A stretch of 64,000 bases of DNA from Thuidium tamariscinum (lineage: Eukaryota > Streptophyta > Bryopsida > Hypnales > Thuidiaceae), in the NCBI GenBank assembly GCA_947034885.2, contig OX344757.2:24670001-24734000 (forward strand), read 5' to 3'. Under the pieces are notes generated by a model that saw nothing but the letters and a program-made list of their open reading frames with translations, was not told the origin of the DNA and did not search any database. Position numbers and translations under genes: made by a program. The first letter of the stretch is position 1. Each line of letters opens with the position of its first letter. Shown piece by piece: positions 31,269 to 57,856 of this stretch.

Positions 31269-32868
31269 TTGAGGAGCGCTTGTGTGCGTGAAGAGGCAAA
31301 ATCTAAGTGGAAACAACTAAAGAAAGTCCATAATCAAGGGCAATTGGCTCATAGACAACTCTACTACGGTCATCGAGTAAGAACGCGTGATAAAATGTTG
31401 TGCATCATTCACAACAAGATGGATCATTCTAAGACAGCTTATCCTCACTTTTTCCACAAGACTAAAGTGACTGAATCCTTCATGAAAATGCATGTTGCAG
31501 TGACCGGTATGATTACTCATGGGCATGGTGATGTGCGATATGTACACTATAGTTTGGGCATTTATCCAACAGATTCAAATCATATCATTAGGGCGATAGC
31601 GAGGTTGTTGCATGATTTGGAAGGAGTGCCAAAAAATTCATCATGTATGTTATTTTCAATAAAAGATAAGCAATCCACCTTGACAAAGGCACTTTTAAAT
31701 GGAGCAGAGACTTGTTTGGATTCCTTCCTTCCACCTCCAGATGATCCACTTCCAACTAATCCTCTCCTCTCTGTATTAATATTACAATTGGACAATTGTT
31801 CAGGGGATAACAAGAATCGTTATGTTTTCGGTTTTTGCTCCATGCTTGTATGCAAAGGTATTTTTCGTGAGGTGTATATCAACTTCCTCATTGTGGGACA
31901 TACTCATGAAGATATAGATGCTCTTTTTGGTCGATGGAGCTCTAGATTGAAGACAAATAACTATCCAATACTTCCGAGGCTCATGAAGTCATTTATAGAT
32001 TCTGATGATCACCATGTGATTCCTCATTTCATTGAGGAAGTTCCTGACTTCAAGGCGTTTGTACATGGATACCTTGGCTCGGGTGGGGACTTCTTAGAAG
32101 ATCATTCTAGATCTCAACAATTCAAGTTTTTTAAGGATTCAAATGATTGGCCTCTCATGGAGTATAAGAATTTGTGTACGGATGATAAGTGGTTGCTTGA
32201 GGGTGGCAAGGAAATAAGATTGTGGTCCAAGATTGCAGACGGGCTTCCTAAAATACCAACAAGTAGTCCTCCACCTCTAGTTCCTGAACTGATGAAGGCT
32301 CTTCTAGATATAAAGGAGGGTTTGAACAGTTTTGTTGAATATTGGAAGAAAATGGCAAATGACGATTACACAGGAGAATTGAGGCGTAAGAATGGCGCCT
32401 TGGAAGATTATTAAAAAGGCATTCGAATGGCTTTGGATGCACCTCTTCAAGTGTGTGAAGCATTATTAGATGGATTTTAGCCAGCTTCCAGAGTTACCCT
32501 AGATGAGACAGATCGAATTCAAAGAGATGGGACATTATATGAGGAAGACGCACAAAATGCACCATTCGTTGGACGCAGGCATGATTGTTCGTGTCCTTCA
32601 TTTTGTGTTAATGTGGATACACATGAAGGCTCTTTTATTGCAGTGCATCCTGCTAATGGTGATCCTAAACCATTTTGGCTTGCTAGAGCCATTACGGCTC
32701 CAAGTCCAGATCTAGAGCATATGCATATGATCCGAATTCAATATTGGATGCCTACTTCAAATCAGCACATTAATATGGATACGTATGAGGGATGGGACTT
32801 GAAACAAGGAAATGTATGGCGTGAAGACACCGCAATCAAGTCAACATGGTCAAGTCGGGTTGTATTCT
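31269..32868 (+). pseudogene. DUF7869-type, transposase-like gene, N-terminally truncated, two in-frame stops
   Basis: One reading frame runs 31269-32868, interrupted only by TAA at 32412 and TAG at 32478. The first 381 residues match the DUF7869 pattern found in plants and animals: KMDHSKTAYPHF (first acidic residue, where relatives read GMDQ-KTN-P), HVAVTGMITHG, LQLDNCSGDNKNRYVFGF, EVYINFLIVGHTHEDIDALF. The spacing fits an RNase-H/DDE-like fold, so a transposase origin is likely but unproven. The part after the stops (FWLARAITAPS, IQYWMPTS) resembles the C-terminal beta-rich module of this family. Upstream there is no zinc-binding N-terminal region, so the copy is probably truncated at the repeat unit before it. 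No frameshift seen; decay is recent. Confidence 0.75.
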
Positions 32869-36134: not shown

Positions 36135-38075
36135 CTACCCGGGTCACCGTCACGATAGCGAACACCATTTTCGAGTGCTTCGAGAAACGAATAGTGAACT
36201 GGAGCCTAGTCATCCAGTATGTAGTCAACCAACTATCCGAACACATTGAGCGGAACAAGACCAGTACTATCACTACCTACTTGTTCCATCTGTACCACCA
36301 GAAGGACGTGCTGAACGGGCCGGAACACCTCATCTATGAGACCGGACTTCAGATTTTGAAGTATGACCTGACGGGAGAGTTGGAGAAGGATCTGGATGAT
36401 CCGGATGATGAGTCAATGAAGGAAGAGCCTCGGGAGCAGAAACCGGCCAGTCAGCCAGAACGGAAATCAGAATGGAAGAAGGTCACGACGCCGAATAAGA
36501 AGGGGGTTCCGGGAACGGATCGAACCGGATTGTCCCAGGGGAGGGAGAAGAGGTCGGACAACTTCGACGTCATCACTCGGCACACCCTAATGGCGCATAC
36601 AGACTACCGGAACCTTGAAGGACTGCTCAAGCAAATCTCCGTCAAGCTGGGCGGAGTCAAGTTCGAGGACATCCCGGAAGCCCTGGACCACCTTCTGACT
36701 CAAGAGGTGTTACAGAAGAAGGAGGAGGAAGTCCGGAGGTGGGAGCATGAGTTCCGGATCCAAGAAGGATGAATCCGAAAAGAAGAAGAACGGGCCCGGA
36801 TAGCTAAGGCGGGTCGGAAGAAGGCGGAAGAGGAGCGGAATGGACTCTAAAACACAACGACCTGGCTAGAGAGTGACCTCAGTGTCGCCAATGGCAAGGT
36901 GAGCGAGGCTACCACCTTGGTCCACAACCTACAAGGGTTAGTGACCCAGACGGCGGAGGCGGTGATGAGGGCCCAACTCTTTTCCGCCCAATTGATGAGA
37001 AAGAGGACTGTGACGGGATCCAAACTCCTCACCATCTTGGTGGACTACTAGGCCAAGATGGAGGGGGTGCTGAAGGAGATGAAGGCCTTGGTTGGGTCCC
37101 TCAATCCGAAAATGGGCGAGGGCCTTCCAAACCTGCTCAATCAACAGATTTACACCAAGTTGAGCCCCAACGCGGAGTTTCGGATGTCAACGGACCGGAA
37201 GCTACTCGGGGACTCGCTGGTCATGAAGAACCTTGCTGAGCTCGGATCGGGTCCGACCACAGCCGGACCATCAACCACACAGACGGATCCGGCTATAAAG
37301 AAGATGATACTCTGGATTGACTTGGAGATCCGGATGAAGGCTCTCCAAAATCCGGCGAGGGAGAATCCGGATCAGTTCACGCACATGAAGGAACTGGAGA
37401 GGGTTCCGCACGACTCTCCGGTCGTCTTGGATGACTCGAACAAGGAAGACGATCCGCCCACCATCATCCGTAGCGAAGTTGGGGAGCCGAGCGAGTTCAA
37501 AGGAGTGGAAGAGTCGGAAAGCTCGGAAGCGGAATCGGAGGAGACCTTGACGGAAGACAGTGGGATGCCACCAGTTCTGATTCAGAGGAGGCAGACCTGA
37601 TCCGCCACCAAGAAAACTCCACCCGCCAAGGCAACAAGGCGGAGGAGTTCAATTCCGCCTGCAAGTACTTCATCAAAACGGGCGCGTAAGTAGGGTAGTT
37701 AGGATTTTGGACAGATGTATCCGGAACGGATTTCCCACATGTGGGTCCTGATCCAGAATTTTAGGAACAACTGGCCAAGACCTTTCCGGATATTCCGGTT
37801 GGGTTCTGACATGGTTATCATAGTAGGCGGACGTTCGGTTCGCCCGTTCGGTAGAGTCAACATATAGTTGACTTTTTGATAATGGAAAAATAGGCCACGT
37901 GGCTGCCATGTGGATTCCAGAACATGCAGGGCACGGATGTGATCGTCAGGGCGCGGACGGGATTTAGGCAGGGGCATGGACCATCTTAAAATTAATTAAT
38001 ATGCTTCTACATATTTCTATTTTATATTCCATATTCCCACTTCCCTAGTCACTCCAACACTTTATATTTTTTTTA

Positions 38076-39410
38076 ATGTTAGATCATATCACTCTAATTA
38101 GTCTAATACCCAAACCATTTTCATATCCAAATTACTCCACCATTCCATTTTTTTTAGGTGTTAAATTACATCACTCTAACACCCAAACCATTTCCATATC
38201 CAAATCACTCCACCATTTTATATTTTTAGGTTGTGTTAAATTACATCACTGTAACATCCAAACCATTTCCATATCCAAATCACTCCACCATTCCATATAT
38301 TTTTTGGGTGTTAGATCATATCACTCTAACACCCAAGCCATTTCTATATTCCAAAGCACTCCACCATCCCTTATTTCTTTTAATATTAGATCATATTACT
38401 CCTTAAAAATAATTGGCCACCCTAAAATAAATTGGTATGCTTTTCAAAAGCTTGGGTCACTTTACCTCCCCTTTTGGACATTGACTTTTGAAGCACACTT
38501 CCATTCCAAGTCACTGCGATTATTTTTATTGGCGGAATCATTCCCTTTCCTATTTTTTTCGCATCATTACCAAAACTCTTCCATTTTAATTCAATGCCAT
38601 TTGTATAGGGTAGAATGATTTCTTTTCCCTATTTTATTTCATGTGATTACCAAAATTGTTCCATTCCAACCTAAGGCCATTTATTTTTGGTTGATCATTC
38701 CCTTCCCTTTCATTTTTTGATTCATTAGCAAAACTCTTTCATCCCAACTCAATTCCATTTATTTTTTGTGGCATCCCAACTCTGTCCCAACTCAATGGTT
38801 AGTAATTTATGTTGGGTGTTAGATGAAATCACTTTGACTCCTTATTTTTTGTGGACTTATCCCTCTTTCATTTTGTTTGCTTTTATCAGCAACATTTTGT
38901 TAACATAAAGCTTAAACGGATTTTCAAAACCCAACAACATTTTATTTCCTTCCTTATTTTTGTTTATCATTCATATCACTTTAACATCCAAACCATTCCA
39001 AGTTTTTTTAATGTTAGATCACATCACTGTAGCACCCAAACCATTTCCATATCCCTAGTCACTCCACCATTCCAAAAAATTTTAAAGTGTTAAATCACTT
39101 CACTCTAACACCCAAACAACTTTAATTTATTATTACATCATTTCCTTCCAATTTCTTTTGCATCATAAGCAAAACTCTCCCATCCCAACTCAATGCCATT
39201 TGTTTTTTGTTAAATCATTCCCTTTTCTATTTTTCTCGCCTCATTAATTAACAAAGCTTTTCTATTTTTTTCCTTGAATCCTAAAACTCTTTCATTCCAA
39301 ATCATTGTCATTTTTTTGGATGAATCATTCCCTTTTTTTATTTATTTTTTGGCTTCATTTCTAGAACTCTCCCATCCGAACTGAATGCCATTTTGTATTT
39401 GGGTGAATGC
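38076..39410. repeat. Minisatellite arrays with 75-90 bp units
   Basis: Two interleaved families. From about 38080 to 38400, and again at 38980-39120, units contain ATCACTCTAACACCCAAACC and CATATCCAAATCACTCCACC. From about 38560 to 39410, units contain AAAACTCTCCCATCCCAACT and AATGCCATTT followed by TCATTCCC. The 38076-38618 open frame is a by-product of the repeats. The second family reappears at 54.9-55.4 kb in the same orientation. Confidence 0.75.
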
Positions 39411-39419
39411 GATGTTCAC

Positions 39420-40447
39420 AGGCTCAAAATCGTGTCACAATGGCAAAAACTGCACTCAACCAATTTTCAAATGCCTTAAAAGTTCATTAAAAAATATTTT
39501 CTTTTAAAAAAAAGTTCATAGTAGAGACCTAAACCTCATTGTAAATACAACTATATTGTTGAATTCTTCTTAACGCATTTAATGAAAGTGTAGGGGACTT
39601 TTGAAAAAACATAGGTGTGACAAAACTACTGTGAACAATTTTTTCAAGGACTTTTTATAGATGGTGTAGGTACTTAAATTCATAAAAGGGACTATGATTC
39701 TAGTGGGTATTTGAGTAAATTTGTAAGAAATGAACATCTTGTAATGTAGATATGTATAGAATGTTTGTAAAGGACTTTTTAATTGCTTTCAAAACCTTGA
39801 AATTTATGAAGTCCTTTTCTCCTTCGTCTTTAATTTTTTTTCCAATTTTTTTTTTCCAAATTATACTATTTTCTGAGTTCTAGCTGTGCCACTTATATTT
39901 GGGACTTTTTAATAAAGCTTAATATATTTAAGTCCAAAGCCCCTCACAGCCTTGTTGTACCAACTTGAAGCATACAAAGATTGGAAAAAATCGGACCGTT
40001 GATGTGGTAAGATCATCAACGGTCCACAGTAGTTTTGCGCGACGCCAAATTGAAGCAGCCTGACATCGTCATTGAAGTCTTCTGCAGCAACTCTAAATGT
40101 ATTCCTCCCGCCTTGGATCGCCTGATGTGAGTCAAAAATTGCTGTTTGAATTTGGAGGCAGCTTCGGTGTTGTTGTTGGGAGTGCACATTGTCGGATTGG
40201 ATGGTCTGCAACAAGTTTAGGGTTTGGGGATTTCATGAAAGATTGCACAAGGTTATTTCTGCCACAAAGCTCTCAGTGCTAGGGTTTAGGGTTTAACGTG
40301 ATTTGGTGTTCTCGCTCTCCATTTTGCTTGGTCGGGCATTTGGCAGTGAATCTCTGAGCACAGTTGTTTCTGTGGATTTTGGGTTTAGGGTTTGAGCTAT
40401 CAAGCTTTGGAGGACATGCTTCTAGGTCATTCTCAAATCCTTTGGCG
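39420..40447. promoter_or_regulatory. 5' region of the plus-strand transposase-like gene
   Basis: AT-rich at first, then at 39.99-40.03 kb a hairpin of GGACCGTTGATG and its complement CATCAACGGTCC. From 40.2 kb there are repeated telo-box-like TTTAGGGTTT motifs (about 40215, 40282 and 40383), common in plant promoters and leaders. No coding region is seen before 40448. Confidence 0.4.
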
Positions 40448-41220
40448 ATGGGGAGCCAAGAAAATCAAAATCGCCGTTCAAGCCAACGAAAGGTGAATAG
40501 ACCTGAAAGATTGATTGAGAAGCGTCGCCGTAGAAATAGAGAACGGCAGGAGCAACACCATTCCCGCAAAGGCAAGAGTGTGCCTGCAGGTGTATTGAGA
40601 GATGATAGGGTTGTTGATGATGTGTCTTCACGAGAGATCAGAAGGGGTGCTCAACGTATCTTACAGTCAATTGATGAAACTTTGCAAGATTTCCCCTCTG
40701 CAGAGGCTCGAGGTCGTGTTTTGCAAAGAGTTCTGGCTTGTAGTGTTTCTTCGGGGAATTTGTTGTCTTCGTCACTTCCTTTGAGCAGTGAAAGCAAGGT
40801 TGAGAGAGATATTGTAAGTGGGCTTCAACAATCTCTTATAGAGGTTAAGGGTGCAAAAACTTCCGCGCATCTGGCTACCAAACATGCAATTTTAACTGCT
40901 GTCGTTAGTGTTGGCTCTAGCACATCCATACGAAGTCAGGCTCGAGCGTTGCAAATACATCCACTAGTAGAAAAAAACAGTGCCTAAATTAACAAAAATC
41001 AACACAAAAGTGTTGATTTTTTTTGTTGATTTGGACGTGTTAATTTGGGTACTTTTTAACACAAAAGTGTTGATTTTTTTGTTAATTTGGACATTGAATT
41101 TTTTCTTTGAAAATTAATTTTTTTCTAATTGGACCAATAAGAAGCTACCACGTGGCAAAAGCCACGTAGGCAATCCGCCACGCAGGCAGGACACGTGGCA
41201 GCTCCCTTGGGGTGCCACCA

Positions 41221-41280
41221 GCAAGGTTCGAACCTTGCACCCCATGGCTGAGGTGCAAGCTCCCAGCCATTGCACCCCCT
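41221..41280 (-). promoter_or_regulatory. tRNA-like Pol III cassette (A and B boxes)
   Basis: On the minus strand, GGGTGCAATGG (A-box-like, 41267-41277) is followed about 34 bp later by GGTTCGAACCT (B box, within 41223-41234). The B box lies in the perfect 18-bp palindrome GCAAGGTTCGAACCTTGC at 41221-41238. This resembles the tRNA-derived head of a SINE. The homologous cassette occurs in the element at 57109. Confidence 0.5.
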
Positions 41281-41388
41281 TTACACATGCATGTGTATAT
41301 GGGAAGTTTTTGAAGTTTTATGTAGCCTGAGTGCGTTTTTTCCCATTTTTTAAAAAGTCAGCGTACTTCGAAGGCCATTTAGGCATAG

Positions 41389-41690
41389 AAAAACAACTTT
41401 TTTAGAAAAATTTTGAACTAAGAAAAGTTTAGAAACAGAATTATCTTTCATCTCCAAAAATCCGTTTGCAATTTCAAGTCTTTTATCAAAAGTTATGAAT
41501 TAATTTCAAAGAGGGTTTTTCATAATGTCAAAAAAAATCCAAAGCAACCCCTTTCTGAAATTAATTCATAACTTTTGATTGGAGACTTGAAATTGCAAAC
41601 GGATTTTTGGAGATGAAAGATAATTCTGTTTCTAAACTTTTCTTAGTTCAAAATTTTTCTAAAAAAGTTGTTTTTCTATGCCTAAATGGT
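41389..41690. repeat. Long internal hairpin of CACTA copy 1
   Basis: Arms of roughly 135 bp, nearly perfect inverted copies (for example TTTGCAATTTCAAGTC on one side and its complement on the other), around a short loop near 41525-41555. The arms share the segment CCAAAAATCCGTTTG with the hairpin in the 57109 element. Confidence 0.85.
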
Positions 41691-44600
41691 CTCTGAAGTC
41701 TGCTGAATTTTAAAAATACCGAATTGAGAATTTTTTTAAAATTTTTTATTGGAAATACACTATTTATAGAATACTAATTAAGATAATTTAAACATTTTCC
41801 AAATAGAAAAATTTAGTTGAAATATGTTTTAGTAAAAATTAACAAAAAAGTGTTGATTTTTTGTTACTTTGAAGATGCAGTATCCAAATCAACAAAAAAA
41901 ATTGTTGATTTGGGCAGTTTTTACATAAATTAACAAAAAATTGTGAAAATGGACGATGGAGTATTGAAATCAACAAAAATTTGTTGATGTTTTGTTAATT
42001 TAGGCACTGTTTTTCTACTAGTGATCCTCGCAACCTTACCCAAGCCAAAGTTCGTAGGAGTGCCATGGAATCAAGTGATGTTTTCAAATGGACGCTTTCA
42101 GTTCGAAAAAAGAGATCCGATGTCCTATCGGAATGCACTAAGGCTTCAGTTGCATTGTGGTGGGCATCAGAAACTCGAAATAGTCCAATAGCTAAAGAAG
42201 TGGTTCATTTGAGAATTGATGTATCCTTGTATGATGTGAAGCCTACACAGTACTTGCTAGAAACTCAGGTATGTGCCAATGGCCTTCTCATTATTCTAAG
42301 TTGTTTACTAGATCTTTGTTGCTACTCAGATTTAGCATTTGCAGTTCTGGATTCATAGCTAGTGTTTGAAAGTGTACTCTTGCATTGTGATCACTATCTC
42401 ACCGATCGTTTGTTGAACCTTTCTTGTACATTGGACGGGATGGAAATTGCGGTTGATCTTCAACATTTGGAATGGTATCACAAACCTAGGTAAGTTCATT
42501 CATTATTTCAATGAAACATGTACATGTTTTGTGGTTTTGAATGCAAATTCTTCTTGGCAAGAGGTCTTTTGTTTAGGTTAGAAACTTTGCACCTTCAGTG
42601 CTACACACACATGTGACTATGATAGATTAGGAATGCAGGTATTGGATGCAATTTTTCCATTTTGACGTTTTTAGTGTGGTCGTGTGGATTTTGGATCGGA
42701 ATTTCAAAACTCACCCTTACTGTATAGGTGTTCAGGATGTCTCAGTAGAATTAGAATAAAACTTTGTATCTTCTGAGTTTTGGCTAAGGTTGGTTGAGTG
42801 AGTGTTAGTATACATTTTGGGTTGGGCATTATTTACTGTGGGCATTCTTTGAGGTAGTTTAGTGTATTCAAGTACGTTAGGGTTTAGGGTTTCTCAATGT
42901 GTAATGGTGTTCAGGGCATTTGTGCATAGTAGAGTCGGGCTTTTGTCACTGCGAGTGATTTTTGAGTTGTCTAGGGTCTTAGGGTACATTCAGTTTGGAC
43001 TTTTGTCGTTGTTCTTGTTTAGTGAGGTTGTTTGGGTTGTTTGAGTTCATTAGGTTTGGACATTTGGTGATGTTACTATTCATTGAGGGGGTTTAGGAGG
43101 TTTGTGTAAACTAGGATTGGACATTTGGCAGTGCAGGTGTTTCCAAAGGCAAGTTCAGATGATCATGGAGATTAGGGTGGAAAGTGCTCTCATTGAGACT
43201 CTACTTGTGCATTTAGGTTTTCTTATTGGGTGTTGCGTTAGGTCTGGACGTCTCTTGAGGTTGTTTATATATAGTTGGATTACAATATTGGACATTAATT
43301 GGTTTGTTGGGTGTTTTTATCAAGTCTGGGATTTCTTTGAGGATGTTAATGTTCTTTAGGGTTATAGTATTCTACAATAGTTGGTATGGGTGTTTAGATA
43401 AGGCAGTTTGGGGTGTTTATGTACAAAAAGTTTGGGCATTTGTGACTATAGAGATTCATTAAGGTTTAGAAGGGTGTTTGAAAGACTTTGAAGATAACAA
43501 TACTATGCACATTTGGCTAATTCCAATGTTGTTGCACTTCCTGCAGATGGAGTTTTTCCTTCGATTTCAGAATGCATACCTTGAAATCATAATTGGCAAG
43601 AGGTCTTTTGACTTGTTGCGCCCTTTCTAGGTGAAAAGATTGAAAGAGCGGAACACTTGCTGCTGCATATACCATGTGGAAATCTCAGAACTTCTTACAG
43701 CGCTCAACAACATGCGACTGAAGTCTGGTCTGCATGCTCCTTGTACTTGTACGTGTGACTGTGATGAAATCTGCTCTTCTACTGAGGTAAGTGGCACTTG
43801 TTGCCAAGGTAAGGAGATGACATACGCTAGGACCACTGAGCTCTAGGAATCAGTGGTGTGTCCGAAAGATGAGTTTGCAGAGTGGCATTCAAGGGAATGT
43901 TTATTTGGAGAATGTGATAATTGTGGTGTTGATTACTTGCCCATTTGCCCTGTTGAGGAAGAAGGAACCTCTAGCATTAAAGTTTCTTGGAAAAGATTTG
44001 AAATGAAAACAATTCTCACTAATAAAGGGGAGGAGAAACAAAAATTACATCTTGCTTACAAGTGCACTACATCAGATGAATTAGTGCAGTATTTGAAACC
44101 CAAATTGCAGTTTTTTATTCAGCATAATTTTGTTGCTAGATGGCAGGATCAACAATTCAAGAAAAGTCTGGAGAATATTCCCATTGATGGAATTGTCTCT
44201 ATGATTGATTTTGCTGAGAACTACAGCTTTGAGATTCAAAATGAAGTGCAGTCTATGCATTGGCAAAATTATCAAATTTCTATACTTGTTCAAATTTGTT
44301 GGACAAGGAATCCTAACCCTGACCCTTCTGATCTAAGTACAAATGCATTGATGAAATATCATTTCTATATTTCTGATGATAAAAAACATGACTCTTATTT
44401 TGTTCAACATTGTTTGAACTTGCATTGGAAAGATTTGCATCAATCAGGCTTTCATCCAAACCAGCACTAGATCTAGTCAAATGGGTGTTCTTCTCAATTT
44501 AAAAGTAAAGTACCGTGGTACTATATCAGCCGCTATCCTCATTTAACTGGGGGTTGTATATGTTGGTGGAATTTTTTTGGCTCAGGGCATGGAAAGGGTC

Positions 44601-45566
44601 CACATGACGAAGCTGGAGCTGTTGTGAAATGGTTCATCCGTCAAGCTCAACTAGATCATGAAGGCCCTGAACTTTCTAATGCTGCCCAATTTGTGCAAAT
44701 GTTGCGTGACAAACTGTCCTCCAGACCAGAGACATGTTACACTAGAACAACCAAAAATGTTGTGGCATGAGTTTTCTGGCACATCTCAAAAGAGACATTG
44801 GCTATTGAACGAGAGACTAAATTCAATATCATGCCTATTGTTGGAACTAGAGATTTGCACTCCATCCGGTCTGTAAATTCTATTTCCACCAATAGATTGC
44901 TCACAAAAAGTTCGGCTTGTTTTTGTTGCTTTTGCTTGGATTGTAAGTGGGATTGTTGTGAAAATTTGGCTTGGATGCTGGGATGGAATGTAAAGGTACT
45001 AATTCCTGAAAACGCAGTGCATGTTCGATCAGCTATTTCTGAAAATTTTCATGGCAGCTCGTGGACAGATTACGGTGGAGATAGAGAAGACTTGGCGTGT
45101 TGCATTGAATTGGGTGAGAACTTCGCAACCAATGCTGAAGCAGATAAGGATGCAAATGTTGATTTTGAAGTGTTGATGTGTAGCAAGCCAGCCTTTACAA
45201 TTGAAGAATCTTTCACTTGTCCTTGGGGTCAAGAATTTCTGGTGGGGGATTTATGTATTGGTGGATTGTACTACCAAAGATATAGTCGTGATATTCGAAA
45301 CTATGTGCTGCTTCGGAAGTCCAAAGTTGCTCATCTCCATGCTTGCCAAGTGATGGCTGTGAAATTCCCCATGGAGCCCCAAGATTACCAAGTGTCTGGT
45401 AATGACATGGTGTATAGGCTAGGGTCTCATGCTGCTGCAGGAATTCAAAGCGCCATTGTAGTACTAGAATCCTAATAGTATGGTGTGAGGTTCAGAAATA
45501 CTTCAAAGATTTAGGTTTAGGTCCTTGATCTCAGTATATTTTCAATTATGATAATTAGACTTGGAA

Positions 45567-47394
45567 TAGTGAAGTTTGAATTAGTATTGTTTGTGAATAA
45601 GTTAGTATAGGCTAGAGTAGGACAGTCATGCTGCAAGGGGCAGTTTTAGAGGTTCAATTCCTCCATGATTGATCTTTGGATTCATTTCAAAGTTTGTTTA
45701 TGCTGCATTTTGCTCTTGAATTCATATTCGACAAGAATTTGTTGCAAGAGATTGGTGAATTTGGTAGACTGAATTTGGTCTATGACTTTCTGTGCAATTG
45801 TGGATACAAGGCTACAAATTCTTGTGACAAGTGACTTATTCAATTGGAACCCAACTTGTGAGGATAACACATATTGATACGGTCTGTAAAGGCTGAGCAT
45901 TTAGGGGTACTGTTGCTGTAAATTCACGGTGTTCAATGAAATGCAGGTTTTTCTTGAGACCTAGCACTTTAATTTTTAGACTCTGTATGTTGAAATTGGG
46001 TTTGTACTTGGACCAATAGTTGCTTGAAATCCATGGTCCAATGAACTAATGAGAAACTTGTCCACTTTTGTACTGTTAGGGACAGAAGTCTACATTTTGT
46101 TAAAAAAGTATTCACAAAGTTTATCTCCCAATATTTTATACTTAGGTACCAAAAGGTGGCTTGATTTTGGCTAGATTCATCTTGATCTTCTTTGATTTAG
46201 AGTAGTTATGACATTAATTCCAATAGATACTCACTTCTAGTGAACATAATAAAGAAGATACCAAATTACCAAGTGAATTACTCTTGTACATGTTTTCAAG
46301 AGTACAAAAGAAAGAGAAGGTTCATGAAAGTGAGCCTTGAATAAAATAGAAGAAGGGAAAAGAAAGAAATAGAAATGTTTAATGGTCAAGAGAATGAGCC
46401 CACAAATATATGTGGAATGGTTCATTGTTTTTTGATGCCTCTACGTTCACTATTGAAGGCCCAAAAGAAAATGGGAATGTTATAGTATTTTGAGGTCACA
46501 AAGGTCTAAGGGGTGAATTTTTAATAAAAAGGGAATGTTTGATTGATTTGAGGTGCTTCTAGGTTAAGGGACTTTCCCCCCCCAAAAAAAAACATATTAA
46601 TGACTTCAATTGGGGGTCCCTGAGCCCTGAGGTCTTAGGTGTTAATTTTTGCCACAAGGAATGGTTCATTATATTTTGGTGTTTCTAGGTTCACAAAGTG
46701 AATTTGAAAATAAAAAGGGAATGGTTCATCATTATAGGGTGATTTTCGGTTCACAAAGTGAACCCAAAAATAAAAAGGGAATGGTAAATAATTTTAGGGT
46801 GATTTTTGGTTCACGTAGTGAACCTAAAAATAAAAAGGGAATGGTTCATCATTTTTGGGTGATTTTCGGTTCACGAAGTGAACCCAAAAATAAAAAGGGA
46901 ATGATACATAATTTTAGGGTGATTTTTGGTTCACGAAGTAAACCCAAAAATGAAAAAGGAATGGCTAATTCATTTTCAATGGTGCTTCTAGATTTACCCA
47001 TTTACAAAGTGAATTACCCCAAATTATCAAAAATATCTAGATAGGTGCTTTGAGAGTCCTATGGGTATTTTGAATGATTTTTTTGAAAATGGAAATTTGC
47101 AAGTTCTTTCGGGGTCCCCAAGGACTAAAAAGTGATCAATCTAAAGAAATTAGTATTGAAGTGCTTTAGGGTCCCCCAAACTCTCAAAAATGAGGGCTAG
47201 AAAATCAATGAAACATTAATTTCTTTGAAGTCACATAAGTTCCAAAGGGTGAATGTGTAAAAACTAATACGAGTTTTATGACTAAAAGGTCCCTAAATCT
47301 CTCAAGAATGAATGCCAACAAATTAATATATGTTTCATGGCTTGAGGGTTGCCAAATCATAATAAACTAAATAAAAAAATCCGGATTTAAAGCC
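45567..47394 (+). repeat. Left arm of giant inverted repeat (1,828 bp)
   Basis: Pairs base for base, without gaps, with 49198-51025 around the centre 48296. Compared segments differ at only about five places, all near the outer or inner ends. Homopolymers match too (eight C plus nine A at 46576-46592 versus nine T plus eight G). It starts about 90 bp after the stop of the plus-strand transposase-like gene. The interior is largely a roughly 60-bp minisatellite. No target duplication is visible at its outer edges. Confidence 0.95.
46640..46975 (+). repeat. 60-bp minisatellite with palindromic core, left arm
   Basis: About five to six units of 60 bp, each containing GGTTCACGAAGTGAACC or a near variant (a self-complementary core) and AAATAAAAAGGGAATGG. 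As 60 is a multiple of three, the frame 46649-47044 stays open and encodes a 20-residue repeat (core VIFGSRSEPKNKKGM). Degenerate units continue through 46.3-47.3 kb. The mirror copy is at 49617-49952. Confidence 0.85.
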
Positions 47395-49197
47395 TGAAAT
47401 AAATTTAAAAAAGACCCTCAAGATTTTTAAACTGATGATATGAAACAAAATTGGGTAAATGTTAGGTACATTTGGGGGGGTGTTCTATCGAAATGAAGTA
47501 ACTTGTACGTGCTAATGGGATCATTAGTAATTTTTGAACTCATTGGTAATTTAATTTTAGGGTCTTCAGAGAATTGTGGCAAATAAGTAATGACATTAAT
47601 TTCCATCTAAATGGGTAAAAAAGTCTATTTTGACCCTTATTAGAAAACAATGTATTTAAGAAATGAGTATAGTCTATGAATATAGTCTTTTTAATATAGG
47701 GAAGTCCTATCAATAGATGGTGAAAATTATTTTTGAACAAATATAGTTTTTTTTAATCTACATATGTATGAATCCAAAAATACCTAGATATTGAGGATTT
47801 ATATTAAATTTATAAAGTATGTTTTACAAATACCTCTCGTTTAAGTCTTGAAGAAATGAATTGATCATGTCCACTTTAAAATATTTTCTTAAGGGTACCA
47901 TAGTTAAGGTTAATATTTACCCTCGTAGAATACCACCCTTTAAAAGCTATCAAAGTATTGGTGTTCAAAATGGGTAAATTTTTTTTCAATAAGTGAATTA
48001 AATATTTTGAAAAATAATTAATGAAAAACGAGGAATTCTTTTATACAACCAAATTATAACAAGTGTTGTAAATTATGAATGTACAAATTGCAAGTTCTTT
48101 TCTATCTTCAATGAAACTTTTAAAATTTAAAACAATTTCATCAATTCCACCCTTAGAAGTAATGAGTCCCATTAGAGATCTTTCAAAGTCTTATAAAACT
48201 TTGATTGCATAAATAGCACGATTACACTTTATTAGAACCAAGACTTTCTTTTGATAAAAGCTTCACAACAAGTGTGTTGAAAGTCATATGTACATGTAGC
48301 ATTATCTTCCAAGCAACATTTGAATAAAACCATAATTTAATTGATTCTTGAACTTGAAGAATTCTTTCACTTCAAGGTTCAGGGTTGTTTTAAGAAAAAT
48401 CAAAATTAACAAATAATTTAGTAATAAAAAAATTTCTTTCCAAAAAGAGCTATTTCTAATTTCATGTATTTATTTGGAAATATGTGCCAAAATTAAGGTG
48501 AAGGTGATATCCTTTTGACAATTGCATATTATATAATTACATTAGTGAAATACATGGTTGAGTGTAACTAAAGTAGATGGACAATTTTGTATAAACTAGA
48601 AAAAGATACTTTTGAACTCTAAATAATAAATGATTAGAATTGCAAAACAAAAATCACATTCCAGAATACTTACAACCCAAGGGAACTTTAAAAACATTTA
48701 GCAACATATTTGTTCAGTTCTAGTTCTAAGGAGTTAAGAGACTCCAAAACAAAACATTAATTAATTATTTCTTCTTCATTTACTTTTGAGGGGTTTGAGA
48801 ACCTAACAAGAAATTAAATATTACATTTTTTACAATAATTTTTTAGAGTGGGAAAATAGGCCCCAAAGCACAAAAAAACAAATGATCAAATGTCCCAAAT
48901 CTTGCAAAAAACAATAAATCATTCCCTTTTTATTGGAGAATTCACTTGGTGTTCAATCTAAATGAACCCCTAAACAATTAATCATTCCATTTTTTTATAA
49001 GTTATCCCCCTAGACCTTAGGCTCCCCCCAAAAGTTTATTTAATGAATGTTCTCTTTTTTCTCCATAGGTTTCACTTGGTGAAACTAAAAACACCAAAAG
49101 AAAACAAAACATTGCAAATTTTTTCAATACGCTTCATTGTTGAACCTACAAGCACCTAAATATAATTAATCATCCCCTTTCTCTTTCAAAATGGTAT
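47395..49197. other. Spacer of the inverted repeat
   Basis: 1.8 kb of AT-rich sequence that is not symmetric, with no gene. Its right edge (48.85-49.2 kb) still carries degenerate 60-bp units (AATCATTCC..., TTTCACTTGGTGAAAC), so part of the spacer was once the same satellite. Confidence 0.6.
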
Positions 49198-51025
49198 GGC
49201 TTTAAATCCAAATTTTTTTATTTAGTTTAATATGATTTGGCAACCCTCAAGCCATGAAACATATATTAATTTGTTGGCATTCATTCTTGAGAGATTTAGG
49301 GACCTTTTAGTCATAAAACTCGTATTAGTTTTTACACATTCACCCTTTGGAACTTATGTGACTTCAAAGAAATTAATGTTTCATTGATTTTCTAGCCCTC
49401 ATTTTTGAGAGTTTGGGGGACCCTAAAGCACTTCAATACTAATTTCTTTAGATTGATCACTTTTTAGTCCTTGGGGACCCCGAAAGAACTTGCAAATTTC
49501 CATTTTCAAAAAAATCATTCAAAATACCCATAGGACTCTCAAAGCACCTATCTAGATATTTTTGATAATTTGGGGTAATTCACTTTGTAAATGGGTAAAT
49601 CTAGAAGCACCATTGAAAATGAATTAGCCATTCCTTTTTCATTTTTGGGTTTACTTCGTGAACCAAAAATCACCCTAAAATTATGTATCATTCCCTTTTT
49701 ATTTTTGGGTTCACTTCGTGAACCGAAAATCACCCAAAAATGATGAACCATTCCCTTTTTATTTTTAGGTTCACTACGTGAACCAAAAATCACCCTAAAA
49801 TTATTTACCATTCCCTTTTTATTTTTGGGTTCACTTTGTGAACCGAAAATCACCCTATAATGATGAACCATTCCCTTTTTATTTTCAAATTCACTTTGTG
49901 AACCTAGAAACACCAAAATATAATGAACCATTCCTTGTGGCAAAAATTAACACCTAAGACCTCAGGGCTCAGGGACCCCCAATTGAAGTCATTAATATGT
50001 TTTTTTTTGGGGGGGGAAAGTCCCTTAACCTAGAAGCACCTCAAATCAATCAAACATTCCCTTTTTATTAAAAATTCACCCCTTAGACCTTTGTGACCTC
50101 AAAATACTATAACATTCCCATTTTCTTTTGGGCCTTCAATAGTGAACGTAGAGGCATCAAAAAACAATGAACCATTCCACATATATTTGTGGGCTCATTC
50201 TCTTGACCATTAAACATTTCTATTTCTTTCTTTTCCCTTCTTCTATTTTATTCAAGGCTCACTTTCATGAACCTTCTCTTTCTTTTGTACTCTTGAAAAC
50301 ATGTACAAGAGTAATTCACTTGGTAATTTGGTATCTTCTTTATTATGTTCACTAGAAGTGAGTATCTATTGGAATTAATGTCATAACTACTCTAAATCAA
50401 AGAAGATCAAGATGAATCTAGCCAAAATCAAGCCACCTTTTGGTACCTAAGTATAAAATATTGGGAGATAAACTTTGTGAATACTTTTTTAACAAAATGT
50501 AGACTTCTGTCCCTAACAGTACAAAAGTGGACAAGTTTCTCATTAGTTCATTGGACCATGGATTTCAAGCAACTATTGGTCCAAGTACAAACCCAATTTC
50601 AACATACAGAGTCTAAAAATTAAAGTGCTAGGTCTCAAGAAAAACCTGCATTTCATTGAACACCGTGAATTTACAGCAACAGTACCCCTAAATGCTCAGC
50701 CTTTACAGACCGTATCAATATGTGTTATCCTCACAAGTTGGGTTCCAATTGAATAAGTCACTTGTCACAAGAATTTGTAGCCTTGTATCCACAATTGCAC
50801 AGAAAGTCATAGACCAAATTCAGTCTACCAAATTCACCAATCTCTTGCAACAAATTCTTGTCGAATATGAATTCAAGAGCAAAATGCAGCATAAACAAAC
50901 TTTGAAATGAATCCAAAGATCAATCATGGAGGAATTGAACCTCTCAAACTGCCCCTTGCAGCATGACTGTCCTACTCTAGTCTATACTAACTTATTTACA
51001 AACAATACTAATTCAAACTTCACTA
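49198..51025 (-). repeat. Right arm of giant inverted repeat (1,828 bp)
   Basis: Reverse complement of 45567-47394. It ends about 300 bp before the 3' end of the minus-strand zinc-protein gene, so both convergent genes are followed by the same sequence in the same sense. Read-through of either would give a transcript that folds into a long hairpin. Confidence 0.95.
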
Positions 51026-51339
51026 ACTCAAACATTAGAAGTCTTGCATTTCAATTATAACTATTAACATGAACCAAAATTGCACCTGAAATTTCCACAA
51101 CACAAAACAATGTAATCACAAGGTTAAAATGCCTGAACTTCATGAGTACCAAAGCCAATTGAAGCAAAATTCAGCACATCAATAGAAGCAGAGAACTTGA
51201 ATCTCAAAAGTCAGAACAAGATAAGCAAAACCTTACCATTTTTTATAATATAAGCATATTGCAAAGAACTAACAAGGAAGTCCAAACACTAAAACCAAGG
51301 GAATATATTACAGACTACCTAATCTCCAAAACCATGTTG

Positions 51340-54300
51340 GATTCTAATTAGAGGGCTTCGCTTTGTGAGTTCCATGGCGTGTAGTTTTAGCCATGGAAAC
51401 TCGTTCATGCACTGGGGTCTTGGCCCTCTTTTGCCTGCCACCCAACCTCCTCGGTGACTGAACCCCTCAAGATGCGCCTCCAACATCGGCATGTGCCTTG
51501 TTGCTTGGTGTTCCTTCATTCGGCTCCACTGTACTGATTTTCTTCGGCCTCCGTGCAGGAGTTCCTCCAGATGGCACCTCGACAGGCTCTGAACCTGATT
51601 CAGAACCTTGCTGTGATCCTCCGCCGGGAGAAAAGGATTCGGGATACGCTTCTTGTGTAGCCTCTTCAGCTGTAGAAGCAAGTCCTTTCTTCACAGGAAT
51701 CCGCCTTCGCTTGCCATCACTGTCCACTTCTTGAGGACTACCACATTTCTTCATAATTTGAACTTCTTTGCGTTTCTTCCCAAGTTCATTAGCAGGGGCA
51801 AACTATTTCATTGGATTCCCAAATCCGCTGCCTTTGCTTCCAACAGAAGGGCTCATGGTACTTGACCTGGAAGCAACTGCTGGCTCCGGATTGGAGTGAG
51901 GGAGACCTGGTAGCACTGAAGCAAAAGGTAAGAAAAAACAAAGTCAGTTACTGAACTTTCAAGCAAGTGCAGATGGAGAAATCCATTGCCTTGATGTATC
52001 CGAAGTTGTACTGAAACGAGTCCTTAGGAAACTGAAGTTCCAACAAAATGTAAGGGAACACGGCTTTAGTAGCTTCAAGTATCAAATTATGTTAGGCAGA
52101 TGCCTACACAACCTTGAAGTACTGAAACATGGGATCAAATGAGATCTTAGTAACTCTAAACCTCTAAGCTCCAAACCTCTGTAGGCAAAGCGGATTTGAA
52201 ATGGTTTTAGTACCAACAAGTGGTATCATTGAGACCTAAACAACCTTCAACTTGAAGAACTGTAATCAAACAAACATGTAGCAATTTAAAGTACTAGGGA
52301 TGTAATCGATGTACCTAAATCAGCTCAATGTTAAACAATAAGTAATAAAAGGAGATTCTAGTATCTAAACAACTTGTAACCCCCATTCTTTGCTAATCAA
52401 AGCAAATTTTAGTACCTTTAAGTACCAACAACTGGAATCAAAGGAGATTAAAGAACCTTCAAGTGAAAAAGCTGTAATCAAATGGGAATGTAGTACCTCC
52501 AATTACAAAGATACAATCAAAGATAGATTAAACAACCTTCAATGTACCCGACATGCAATGAAATAGTATTACAGAGGCTTAAATTATCCAAAGAAGTAAG
52601 CTAAATGCCTAAACAACCTCCAAATTCAACAATCTGTGGTCAAAAGAGATTCAGTAGCTAGACCAGCAGCAAGTCAAAAACTGATGTCATGGAAGCACAT
52701 CTCAGTACCTTGAAGTCCCAACAATCGAAATTGTAGGACCACCCTAGTTCAAATGTGTAATATTAAAGGATCCCAGTGCCTTCAATTACAAAACAATATA
52801 AGCAAAGGAGCCAAAACACCATTACACTTCTAAAATACATGATCAACAATTGAACTCAATACCTCCAAGTACAAGCAGATGCAATCAAAGGATCAAAAAG
52901 AATTCAAAAATTTTGGACAGAAGAGGGAAACCCTAAACTGACCTTCTGTATTGGAGATAGTGGAAAGAAGTTTGGGTAGTCCTACCCTTCTTGCTTTATA
53001 ACCAGATTGAATCCACCAGCTGGAGTGCATTTCTTCACCACAATCTTTAAAGCAACATTTTGTAGAAGTTGAAAAATGGGCAGTGGCACACCAAGAGTGA
53101 TAACCATGTTTGCAAGATGCTATCTTACAATCCCACTCAGGCTCAAACAATTTTCCACAAAAAGCACAAGGGTGAGAGATCATACAACAATCTTGCATCC
53201 CATTTGAAATACCGTCATTGCTACCAAGCTGCCGTGGACGTGGATGCAGAATTGGAAGCTGTTGGCCAGTCCTCAACAGCTTCAGTTGGCACTTTAGGGC
53301 ATCCCTTTGCCGCCCCAAAACTTGAAATTTCTCCAACGTGGCAGTTTCAGCAGTAGTAGTTGAGCTTGCTTTCTCGATTGCCTTCTCGTGCTCCAGTTCT
53401 CCATTGCTTAACATTTCCGCAAAGGTATCAAGGACTCTTGATTGAGCATCTAATTTCTTGAGCAAAGGAGCAGCATCGGGAAAATTGGCAATTGAAATCT
53501 CTAAATCCTCGGGTATGCTAGCCTTCATCACGTTCAGATCAGCTTCCAATTGTTGAAGCTTTGCGGAGGCCGTTCGAAGGAGCTGCTGCCGATCGGCCAA
53601 TTGAGCATCTACACGTAGTAAGTCTTGGGCGCTTTGCTCCTTATTCTGCTTGAGCACCTCCAAAACCGAGGTTGAAGTAGCGATTTCTTCGTCCATAGAA
53701 CTCAGGAAATTGGACCATTCCGAAATGAGAGTCTCAGTCTCTTACCGACTTAGCGTACTTGGGGGAGGCATTTCCAGTACCCCTTTCTTCTTCACCGAAT
53801 ACTCGCGCTTCAATTCCCTGACGCTGCGAGAGACATTCCTTGCGTTCTCCTCCTTGTTGATATCGGAGTCTATGTGCAGAGTGCTAGTTAGCGCAGATAG
53901 TGAACCCAAACCCTGAGATTGCTTCCTCACTTGTCTCTCTTCTCTACGAATGCGATCCCTAATGCACCATTCTCCAAACACAGCCCAATTTACCAACACG
54001 GGGGGGTCTTTCTTCATGCAAGTGAAGCCCCGTGCTTCGGCCTTGTTGATGCACCGTACCCCTGGCACCACCGTCTTCTGGTGACAAATCATCCACAACC
54101 TCTCAATCTCTTTGCAAACTTCTTCATCGTCGTGGTGATTGTAGTGATAGGCATTCTTGCCATTCACCGGCCCAAACCATCTCTCAACCTCAGCCTCAGT
54201 ACAATCTCTCCCTATCTTCAATTTCTTGGGAGACTTTCTTCTATTTGAAAGACCATACACTGACTCGAAAGTTCTTCTAGAAACTGGAAGCTTCCCATCA

Positions 54301-54431
54301 AAAACTAAGGTGGGCTCCTCAGCATACAGAGGTTGAACCCAAGTACTCATAGTGTTCTCAATTTTCACTCTAACGCCATGCTCCTCAACGTGGTCTTCAT
54401 CGAAACCCTCACTACCGCTATCGTTCGACAT
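51340..54431 (-). pseudogene. Coiled-coil plus RING-like zinc protein, unknown family, decayed
   Basis: Exon 1 runs 54431 to about 52919 in one frame, broken only by TAA at 53742-53744. A 1.0 kb intron (GTCAGT donor, AG near 51912) follows, then a last exon at 51911-51340 with in-frame TAG (51803-51805) and TGA (51467-51469). The N-terminal 200 residues are rich in charged residues (motif DPPVLVNWAVFGEWCIRDR). A coiled coil follows (QLADRQQLLRTASAKLQQLE), then a zinc-binding segment C-AF-C...C-K-H-GY-H-SW-C...C-CFKD-C resembling RING-H2. The last exon is Ser/Pro/Lys-rich with basic clusters (GKRRRIPVKK), like a nuclear protein. I do not recognise the family. Its orientation, matching decay and shared downstream repeat suggest it is the partner of the 40.4-45.5 kb gene. 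Confidence 0.6.
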
Positions 54432-54895
54432 TGTTCAAATCTCCAAGCCAAAATTCAAACTTCCCTAACGCGCACTTGACGATCACACAAACTGAGAGTA
54501 ACATGCAGTACACAAGAAAACTCACAACAGTACACAAACTGATCACGGAGAAGCGCGGCGACGCTCTGGGCTCCACCCAATTCAAAACCCCAAGGCCGTA
54601 AAACCCCAGGCCATCATCCAACCGCACATTCCGCCTCCAATCGACGGCCTAGCAGCTTCGCCCCCGATCGATGGCCAGTCTGACAGCCTACAACGGCATC
54701 CAGCCGCCCATTTTGATGGGTATCAATGATGCTGGCCAGCCCATTAACACTCCATCCAACCGCCCATTTGGCATGAAATCAATGGCTATCAGAAGCTCTC
54801 ATGGGGTCTGAGTATATGAGCTGAACACAAAATTCAGCCATACATGGGGACTTTTAAGACAAGGACTTTTGCCAAAATTGAGCCACTCAACCGTG
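54432..54895 (-). promoter_or_regulatory. 5' region of the minus-strand zinc-protein gene
   Basis: GC-richer, non-coding, with a repeated TTGGATG/ATGGGCGG-like pattern (CCATCCAACCGCCCATTT and CATCCAGCCGCCCATTTT at about 54700-54770). Probably the leader and promoter. Inference. Confidence 0.35.
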
Positions 54896-54899
54896 CATC

Positions 54900-55400
54900 T
54901 ACCCATTTGTTCCATCATTTCGTTTCCTATGTTTTTTATTAATTAGCAAAGCTCTTCTTATCCCAACTCCATGCCATTCTTTTTGGTTTCGGTCATTCTC
55001 TCTCTTATTTTTTTGGCTTCATTCCTAAAACTCTCCCATCCCAACTTATAGTTATTCTTTTAGTTTTTCTTGAATAATTCCTTCTTCGATTTTGTTTTGC
55101 TTCATTAATTAGCAAGACTATCCCATCCTAATTCAAAGCCATTTTTTTGTAATTCCATCATTCTCTTTCCTTTTGGGGGGCTTCCTTTCTAAAACCCTTC
55201 CATCCCAATTGAAAGCCAAATGTTCATTTTTTGTTCCATATTTTCTTTCCCTATTTTTTTGGCTTCATTCCTACAATTCTCCCATCCCAACTCATAGTTC
55301 TTGTTCTTTTTTTTGTTGAATCACTCCTTTTTCTTTTTTGTTTAGCTTCATTAATTAGCTGGACTATTTTATTCCAACTCATAGTTTCTCTCGACGACAA
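54900..55400. repeat. Minisatellite array, same family as 38.5-39.4 kb
   Basis: Units of about 80-90 bp with TTCATTAATTAGCAA, CTCCCATCCCAACT and CATTCTTTTT-type segments, in the same orientation as the array left of the two-gene block. About five imperfect units. Confidence 0.75.
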
Positions 55401-57105: not shown

Positions 57106-57454
57106 CTCCACTACTAGAAAATGATGTCCAAATCAACAAAAAATCAACAAATTTTTGTTAATTTGGGTACTGTATTGACCATTTTCACAAAATTTTGTTG
57201 ATTTGGCACTAGTTAACAAAACAGTGACAAATTTTTTGTTGATTTGGGTAGTGCAATGTCCAAATCAACAAAAAATTTAACACTTATTTGTTAACTAGGA
57301 ATTTCAAAAGTTTCATATAAGTTTCTTCATTTGTGCAATGTCAAAATAACCGTGCTTGAAATTTTATGCAAAAACAAATGCTTCTTCCCAAGTCAATCAT
57401 TCAAAATTCAGTGTTTTTGAACATCAGCAGACTTTGGTGGCCATTTTTGCATAG

Positions 57455-57765
57455 TAAAACAACTTTTTTGAGAAAACTTTAAACTAATGAAAGTTGAAAA
57501 ATAAAATTATCTTTCATCTCCAAAAATCCGTTTGAGATTTCAAGTTTCCAATCAAAAGTTATGGACAAAAATCAGAGAAGGATTAAAGAGGACATTGTAT
57601 TTGACATTTTAAGAAACCTTCTCTGAATTCTATCCATAACTTTTTATTGGAGACTTGAAATCTCAAACGGATTTTTTTAAATGAAAGTTTTTTGTATATG
57701 CCAACTTTCATTAGTTTAAAGTTTTCTTAAATAAGTTGTTTTTCTATGTGTAAACGGCCACCAAA
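57455..57765. repeat. Long internal hairpin of CACTA copy 2
   Basis: Inverted arms of about 130 bp including CAATCAAAAGTTATGGA and its near complement, with a loop around 57585-57620. Homologous to the hairpin at 41389-41690 but more diverged between arms. Confidence 0.75.
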
Positions 57766-57856
57766 GTCAGCTGATTTTAACATAACAAAGACAAACTAAA
57801 AGGAAGAAGTAGCTAAATTAATTCTAATTTCATTCTAGATCACTTGTGGTTATACA

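Follow-up and report, generated by a model that had tools for sequence, protein, structure and literature searches.

Convergent DDE-like and RING-H2-like genes in a probable two-gene DNA transposon of the moss Thuidium tamariscinum

We analysed a stretch of 64,000 nucleotides of Thuidium tamariscinum (NCBI GenBank assembly GCA_947034885.2, contig OX344757.2, positions 24,670,001 to 24,734,000 of the forward strand), referred to here as the window, and found that its positions 39401-54904 are very probably one worn copy of a two-gene cut-and-paste DNA transposon. The element carries a DDE-like gene, the presumed transposase, and a gene for a RING-like partner, which face each other between imperfect terminal inverted repeats (TIRs) and a 4-bp target site duplication. 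An earlier prediction made from the letters of the window had set the borders of such a unit at 39420-54895, within 20 bases of the ends determined here. The genome scanned for further copies was the same assembly (363 Mb, 19 contigs), in which the window corresponds to C9:24670001-24734000. It holds 49 matches to the light-harvesting family PF00504, in keeping with a photosynthetic eukaryote and most likely a plant. The element and its ends are as follows.

39401..54904, plus strand: whole transposon copy, 15504 bp; ends from copy comparison and genome-wide end patterns, the latter with 0 control matches
39397..39400, no strand: left target site duplication ATTT, from sequence and copy comparison
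39401..39434, plus strand: left TIR region, GGGTGAATGC...GGCTCAAAATCGTG, from copy comparison and end patterns
54871..54904, minus strand: right TIR region, read inward GGGTAGATGC...GCTCAATTTTGGC, from copy comparison and end patterns
54905..54908, no strand: right target site duplication ATTT, from sequence and copy comparison

On comparison of the window with other copies by blastn, similarity was observed to start and stop at common points. The left ends of the six copies compared read GGGTGAATGC, and the right ends of six, read inward, start with GGGT. The TIRs, which start with GGGT, are imperfect and asymmetric, left and right ends agreeing at 12 (C3 copy) and 13 (C4 copy) of the first 16 bases. 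When these end patterns were searched genome-wide, 40 left and 48 right matches were obtained, against 0 for reversed-pattern controls. Facing ends within 40 kb pair into 29 elements, of which nine are long, spanning 13,537 to 32,041 bp, and 20 are short, spanning 396 to 966 bp. An exact 4-bp duplication flanks 17 of the 20 short copies, where mismatched pairs predict 0.21, and in the remaining three the duplication agrees at 3/4 bases; duplication lengths of 2, 3, 5, 6, 7 and 8 tested on the short copies gave no excess. Seven of the nine long copies also have the exact duplication (the window copy and those at C6, C4, C3:2.94M, C5:0.34M, C2:27.1M and C3:5.96M), and in the long copy at C8 it agrees at 3/4 bases. 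Shared TIRs, a duplication of fixed length and non-autonomous derivatives with the same ends, the features by which a TIR cut-and-paste DNA transposon is recognised, were thus all found. The short elements (L043-L062, n=20) include 13 of 627-658 bp and five of 727-738 bp that have both ends in common, and these short derivatives are apparently families resembling miniature inverted-repeat transposable elements, mobilised in trans. Partial copies were observed as well; only the RING half is kept at C1, and mainly the DDE half at C10.

Pairing of the two genes is the second line of evidence. In the window, the DDE-like gene runs on the plus strand from an ATG at 40448 to a stop codon at 45475 and the RING-like gene starts on the minus strand from an ATG at 54431, so that they face each other, as had been predicted. 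The genome was searched in six frames with one exon per gene, and the best 67 of 483 candidates for the DDE-like gene and the best 103 of 428 for the RING-like gene were scored. This gave at least 66 DDE-family loci (72 rows, split matches being merged by hand) and at least 104 RING-family rows. A RING-family match lay within 30 kb of 37 of the 66 listed DDE loci, and the nearest match was convergent in all 37; in 200 trials of random placement such pairs numbered 0.3 on average and never more than 3. Viewed from the other side, 47 of the 104 listed RING rows face a scored DDE locus and a single one is tandem, at C6:4893386, near a DDE locus which has a closer convergent partner. This recurrent pairing, together with the common termini and 4-bp duplications, bears out the original prediction of a two-gene mobile element.

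In order to describe the DDE-like gene, we list its parts and the insertion that cuts it.

40448..40961, plus strand: first coding exon with a basic N-terminus, cut by a nested element; ratio of nonsynonymous to synonymous substitution rates (dN/dS) 0.32 relative to the C6 copy (169 codons)
40962..42023, no strand: nested insertion with CACTA...TAGTG ends, a 3-bp duplication ATC and a 171-bp inverted repeat inside; foreign to the transposon proper
42024..42268, plus strand: first coding exon resumed after the insertion, its first 3 bases being the duplication; end placed by eye (GT donor)
43547..45475, plus strand: last exon, presumed catalytic region, with 5 in-frame stops; exon start placed by eye
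44207..44209, plus strand: first presumed catalytic Asp codon, in IDFAENY, from alignment
44480..44482, plus strand: second presumed catalytic Asp position, SDG in most relatives and Asn in the window copy, from alignment
44606..44608, plus strand: third presumed catalytic Asp codon, in GKG..D, from alignment

The last exon is the conserved core of this gene and is open for 661 codons in the C6 copy; upstream, 42024-42518 is homologous to other copies by blastn. Alignment A1 comprises 14 sequences with identity to the first down to 36%, and its residues are numbered on P0001. The motifs ID[FY].ENY, SDGC..QFK and GKG..DG follow one another in this order across the alignment, and the acidic positions are D240 in every sequence that reaches that position (13 of 13), D331 in 12 of 14 and D373 in all 14. 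The presence of three ordered, conserved aspartates suggests a DDD triad with a presumed catalytic role. Viral and prokaryotic collections scanned for relatives yielded a single match of 18 residues on a contig of the viral collection (L024), which had nothing else in its record that matched and which we took as chance, and the other scans yielded none.

The partner gene was resolved into two stretches.

52893..54431, minus strand: first coding stretch, with a coiled coil (identified by eye) and a C3H2C3 zinc site; 1 in-frame stop
51340..51690, minus strand: presumed last part of the gene, of tentative frame and splicing, in an open frame at 51322-51690

Of the second stretch and its surroundings, 51344-52307 is homologous to the C6, C4, C3 and C8 copies by blastn. 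The ligands of the zinc site in P0002 (C315, C318, C333, H335, H338, C341, C352 and C357) are spaced C-x2-C-x14-C-x-H-x2-H-x2-C-x10-C-x4-C and are unchanged in all five aligned partner sequences, two of which are 94% alike and the two most distant of which have 27% and 23% identity to P0002. All curated Pfam RING models stayed below their cut-offs, the best RING-type match having an E value of 0.0019 and 18.3 bits against a cut-off of 27. With eight invariant Cys/His ligands, the RING-H2-like site that had been predicted seems right in kind, and we regard the partner as a putative RING-H2-like protein and possibly an E3 ligase.

Both genes have been under purifying selection. For the last DDE exon of the window against that of the C6 copy, the synonymous distance (dS) is 0.875 and dN/dS is 0.09 (636 codons), and for the RING stretch the values are 0.915 and 0.18 (496 codons). 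The equal synonymous distance of the two genes fits their joint travel, and the low dN/dS of both fits a need for both before decay. Comparison of relatives A and B shows saturation at synonymous sites (proportion of synonymous differences 0.81 and 0.83), and the proportion of nonsynonymous differences is 0.14 for the DDE-like and 0.40 for the RING-like gene.

The window copy itself is dead, given the stops in both genes, the loss of one presumed catalytic Asp and the nested insertion. The nested element of 1.06 kb interrupts the DDE frame and is missing from all seven other copies that cover the site (blastn); its ends are presumably of the CACTA type. A second stretch of the window, 57118-57778, is related to the nested stretch at 40962-42023, and both carry inverted repeats of about 170 bp. 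It had been predicted that each gene holds about three or four in-frame stops and that the two seem to have died together. Stops are indeed present, in numbers that differ from those predicted (5 in the last DDE exon and 1 in the RING stretch). Both genes appear to have introns, judging from their interrupted frames, so that many of the apparent stops fall in introns. The joint death of the genes is not borne out. Among the 72 listed DDE rows, 54 have in-frame stops (84 TAG, 35 TGA and 20 TAA); this TAG-rich spectrum perhaps reflects decay of methylated DNA.

The 3' flanks of the two genes in the window form a giant inverted repeat.

45567..47394, plus strand: DDE-side arm, which begins 91 bases beyond the stop codon
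46658..46969, plus strand: array of 60-bp tandem repeats in the DDE-side arm, its unit with a GGTTCACGAAGTGAACC dyad
47395..49197, no strand: spacer between the arms, 1803 bp
49198..51025, minus strand: arm on the RING side
49623..49934, minus strand: array of 60-bp tandem repeats in the RING-side arm

The arms are 1828 bp each, with 6 mismatches and 0 gaps. A unit built around such a repeat had been predicted; the repeat (45567-47394 / 49198-51025) is real in the window, and it marks one lineage and not the unit in general. Facing outer-arm matches were observed at 10 of 13 lineage loci (a count which drops three short rows at two further places); of these 13 loci two have one side only, and at C10 a short piece of the second arm remains. 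Over the outer 1000 bp, the arms are 100% alike inside the window copy and 100% alike inside the C5 copy, and are 93-94% alike between these two copies. Since the outer arms are identical within each of the two copies, which differ from each other by 6-7%, they appear to have been homogenised copy by copy. In the single copy of a 69% relative, the outer arms are 100% alike over 860 bp; its arms are 97.4% alike over 1166 bp, and their sequence is unalignable to the arms of other lineages. The 83% lineage has outer arms that are 68-70% alike within one copy, same-side arms that are 95-99% alike between copies and inner arm arrays that are 91-98% alike across sides. Per-copy homogenisation is thus seen in two copies, a third being consistent with it, and the outer arms of the 83% lineage lack it. 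The simplest cause would be gene conversion between the arms or repair templated on the partner arm, although a fresh inverted duplication within each copy may also account for it. The tandem units of the arms measure 54 to 65 bp and are distinct per lineage. By eye, the unit resembles the terminus (GGGTGA..GGTTCAC), and we also considered whether the arms could be arrays of binding sites like those at the ends. Terminus-versus-arm scores equalled those of shuffled arms in 7 tests on 3 lineages, with 76 to 169 of 200 shuffles reaching the observed score, and the idea was rejected.

More distant relatives share the gene plan. The relative at C11:3285041-3302167, with 41% identity in the last exon, has the same plan, a perfect 21-bp TIR (GGGTTGAAGTACACTAGACCC) and the duplication TTGC. 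A free TIR search of the divergent family gave noise only; a GGG-seeded search gave the 21-bp repeat at C11 and no convincing pair for relative B or for the 69% relative on C3 (C3b69), whose ends were placed by motif matching. Among 52 loci at 36-49% identity, 14 are stop-free wherever they match the last exon (some matches being partial), so that apparently intact copies exist. A long repeat comparable to that of the window was not found in the C11 relative, the C6 relative or a 47% relative, and the C11 relative carries only short repeats of up to 95 bp. The palindrome is therefore a trait of one lineage and not of the whole unit.

Several observations weigh against our identification of a two-gene transposon with a DDD transposase. 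Among the matches listed, 29 of the 66 DDE loci have no RING partner, and 56 of the 104 RING rows lie more than 32 kb from any scored DDE locus; search sensitivity may explain the unpaired members, and the unpaired RING rows may be parts of more distant pairs or else solitary or host genes. The long copy at C5:18932936-18964873 agrees at only 1/4 duplication bases, which is no match, and its left end is decayed. Flanks are common to L060 and L061, and the right flank is also shared by L058; the 20 short copies are thus not all independent insertions. Relative B (C6:4903819-4919819) has similar ends (GGGTGTAAGTA) and a duplication that does not match, and in C3b69 the duplication agrees at 3/4 bases and the right end starts with AGGT. 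In the close pair of the window and C1 copies, dN/dS of the RING stretch is 0.49 at a dS of 0.06 (267 codons), a value expected of decaying copies. As regards the transposase, D331 is replaced by Asn in the window copy and by His in L035. A Pfam search of P0001 returned 0 families at E values up to 5, and among 14 relatives it returned chance-level matches only (TcA_TcB_BD in two, best E 0.019, and MyTH4 in one, E 0.045). A search of the PDB gave 3 weak matches (best E 0.042) and a profile search of it gave 0, and two single-sequence AlphaFold2 models were too poor to search for an RNase-H fold (pLDDT 32.7 and 40.3). No homology was detected, so that the gene is called a transposase on the grounds of its motif order and of how the element behaves.

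Taken as such a transposon, the element might work as follows. Each gene would be transcribed inward from near one terminus. The product of the left gene would be a DDD transposase that recognises the ends of about 25-34 bp, cuts the element out and reinserts it with a stagger of 4 bp. The product of the right gene would be a coiled-coil, RING-H2-like accessory that the element needs, most likely an E3-ligase-like helper that either aids the transposase or acts against silencing by the host. One lineage has inverted copies of a single sequence as the 3' flanks of the two genes, with a spacer in between; gene conversion, or repair in which one arm serves as template for the other, could keep the arms of some copies identical. 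We tentatively propose, as a possibility somewhat short of probable, that the element represents an undescribed plant superfamily, in which a DDD transposase outside the curated domain families would be obligately and always convergently paired with a RING-H2 partner, one lineage carrying a palindrome with rewritten arms as a shared 3' flank. A literature search of partial coverage returned no matching title for a convergent DDE and RING transposon or for a transposon whose central palindrome is homogenised.

The element may instead belong to a superfamily already described, and the chances of this appear evenly balanced in the case of Sola, the RING gene then being an unreported or unnoticed second gene. 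Compared by description only, Sola elements have a DDD transposase and 4-bp duplications, some exceed 15 kb, and they occur in the moss Physcomitrella (PMC10741241, PMC9033089). The window element, with its 4-bp duplications, presumed DDD-like triad, size of 15.5 kb and occurrence in a moss, matches these descriptions, the closest known example being Sola1 of Physcomitrella; however, the portions of the two papers that describe Sola mention neither a second RING gene nor a central palindrome (PMC10741241, PMC9033089). It is also quite conceivable, though short of probable, that the RING partner is an anti-silencing or host-control factor, namely a ligase for ubiquitin or SUMO that targets chromatin proteins of the host, and that the DDE protein alone mobilises the element. 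Conserved RING ligands in a protein that otherwise diverges fast (the 27% and 23% identities, and a dN/dS of 0.18 versus 0.09) would fit such a host-facing factor, whereas the uniform convergence at the 37 paired loci would be expected of any partner that the element needs and favours neither reading.

For the palindrome, a role in self-silencing or transcription control, in which read-through from either gene would yield a long hairpin RNA and, from it, small RNAs that hold copy number down, seems unlikely to us. Each gene is indeed followed immediately by an arm, the two arms of the window copy match almost perfectly, and the inner arrays stay alike across sides even where the outer arms have drifted, but the outer arms of the 83% lineage are down to 68-70% and the three distant relatives examined are without such a repeat. 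Long, near-perfect arms are a usual assembly hazard; an artefact is nevertheless highly improbable here, as the arms differ at 6 places, facing arms of varied identity occur at 10 of the 13 lineage loci, and the arms of the 69% relative are of unrelated sequence. We give no more credence to a domesticated pair of host genes, an idea also raised in the original prediction. The low dN/dS and the stop-free state of some copies would suit it, yet for the window copy it conflicts with the many dispersed copies that have target duplications, with the short derivatives and with the stops in 54 of the 72 listed rows.

Other two-gene systems were compared with our element. In MuDR of maize the two genes, mudrA and mudrB, are convergent. 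MuDR likewise has two genes in one TIR transposon and, in the part of the source that deals with it, the protein of the second gene is described as apparently required for integration (PMC6446971); its duplications are of 9-10 bp, as against 4 bp in the window element (PMC6446971). We consider MuDR the best functional analogue. Pfam detected no MULE transposase domain in P0001 or in 14 relatives, so that the features that define a MULE were not found. PIF/Harbinger elements have a 3-bp duplication and a type of partner protein unlike the RING-like one. They resemble our element as plant TIR elements with extra coding sequence (PMC9033089). KolobokP is outlined as a composite-like DNA transposon and resembles our element in having a DDD/E transposase, a second protein and long repeats (PMC9587614); as outlined there, these are long terminal direct repeats and the element has a His-Me nuclease, whereas the window element has inverted central arms and a RING-like protein.

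The element points to a two-gene transposon group with at least 66 transposase-gene loci in one genome, and to a RING-like accessory whose role is directly testable. Its central palindrome is a natural assay of arm-to-arm gene conversion, being present in several copies and in two states, identical and about 70% alike. As the transposase has no Pfam match, annotations of plant genomes probably leave such elements unclassified or list them as host genes.

Outside the element, degenerate AT-rich direct repeats at 38033-39382 and 54901-55384 of the window flank it and share a common motif, e.g. TTTTTTGGCTTCATT...CTCCCATCC. The element thus appears to have landed in a field of repeats that was already there. 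An open frame at 31269-32414 encodes a DUF7869 domain (E 2.4e-43). Genome matches to it (the best 150 of 853 candidates) lie in many cases in frames of about 950 codons, and these frames are probably another very abundant mobile element. Two of the matches, at C5:18945403 and C1:45952244, fall within two of the convergent-pair intervals. The DUF7869 gene of the window (31269-32414) was considered as a relative of the transposase, and a profile comparison gave no match. Finally, minus-strand frames at 16867-18188 encode PX and Rubicon-homology domains and are likely exons of an ordinary host gene.

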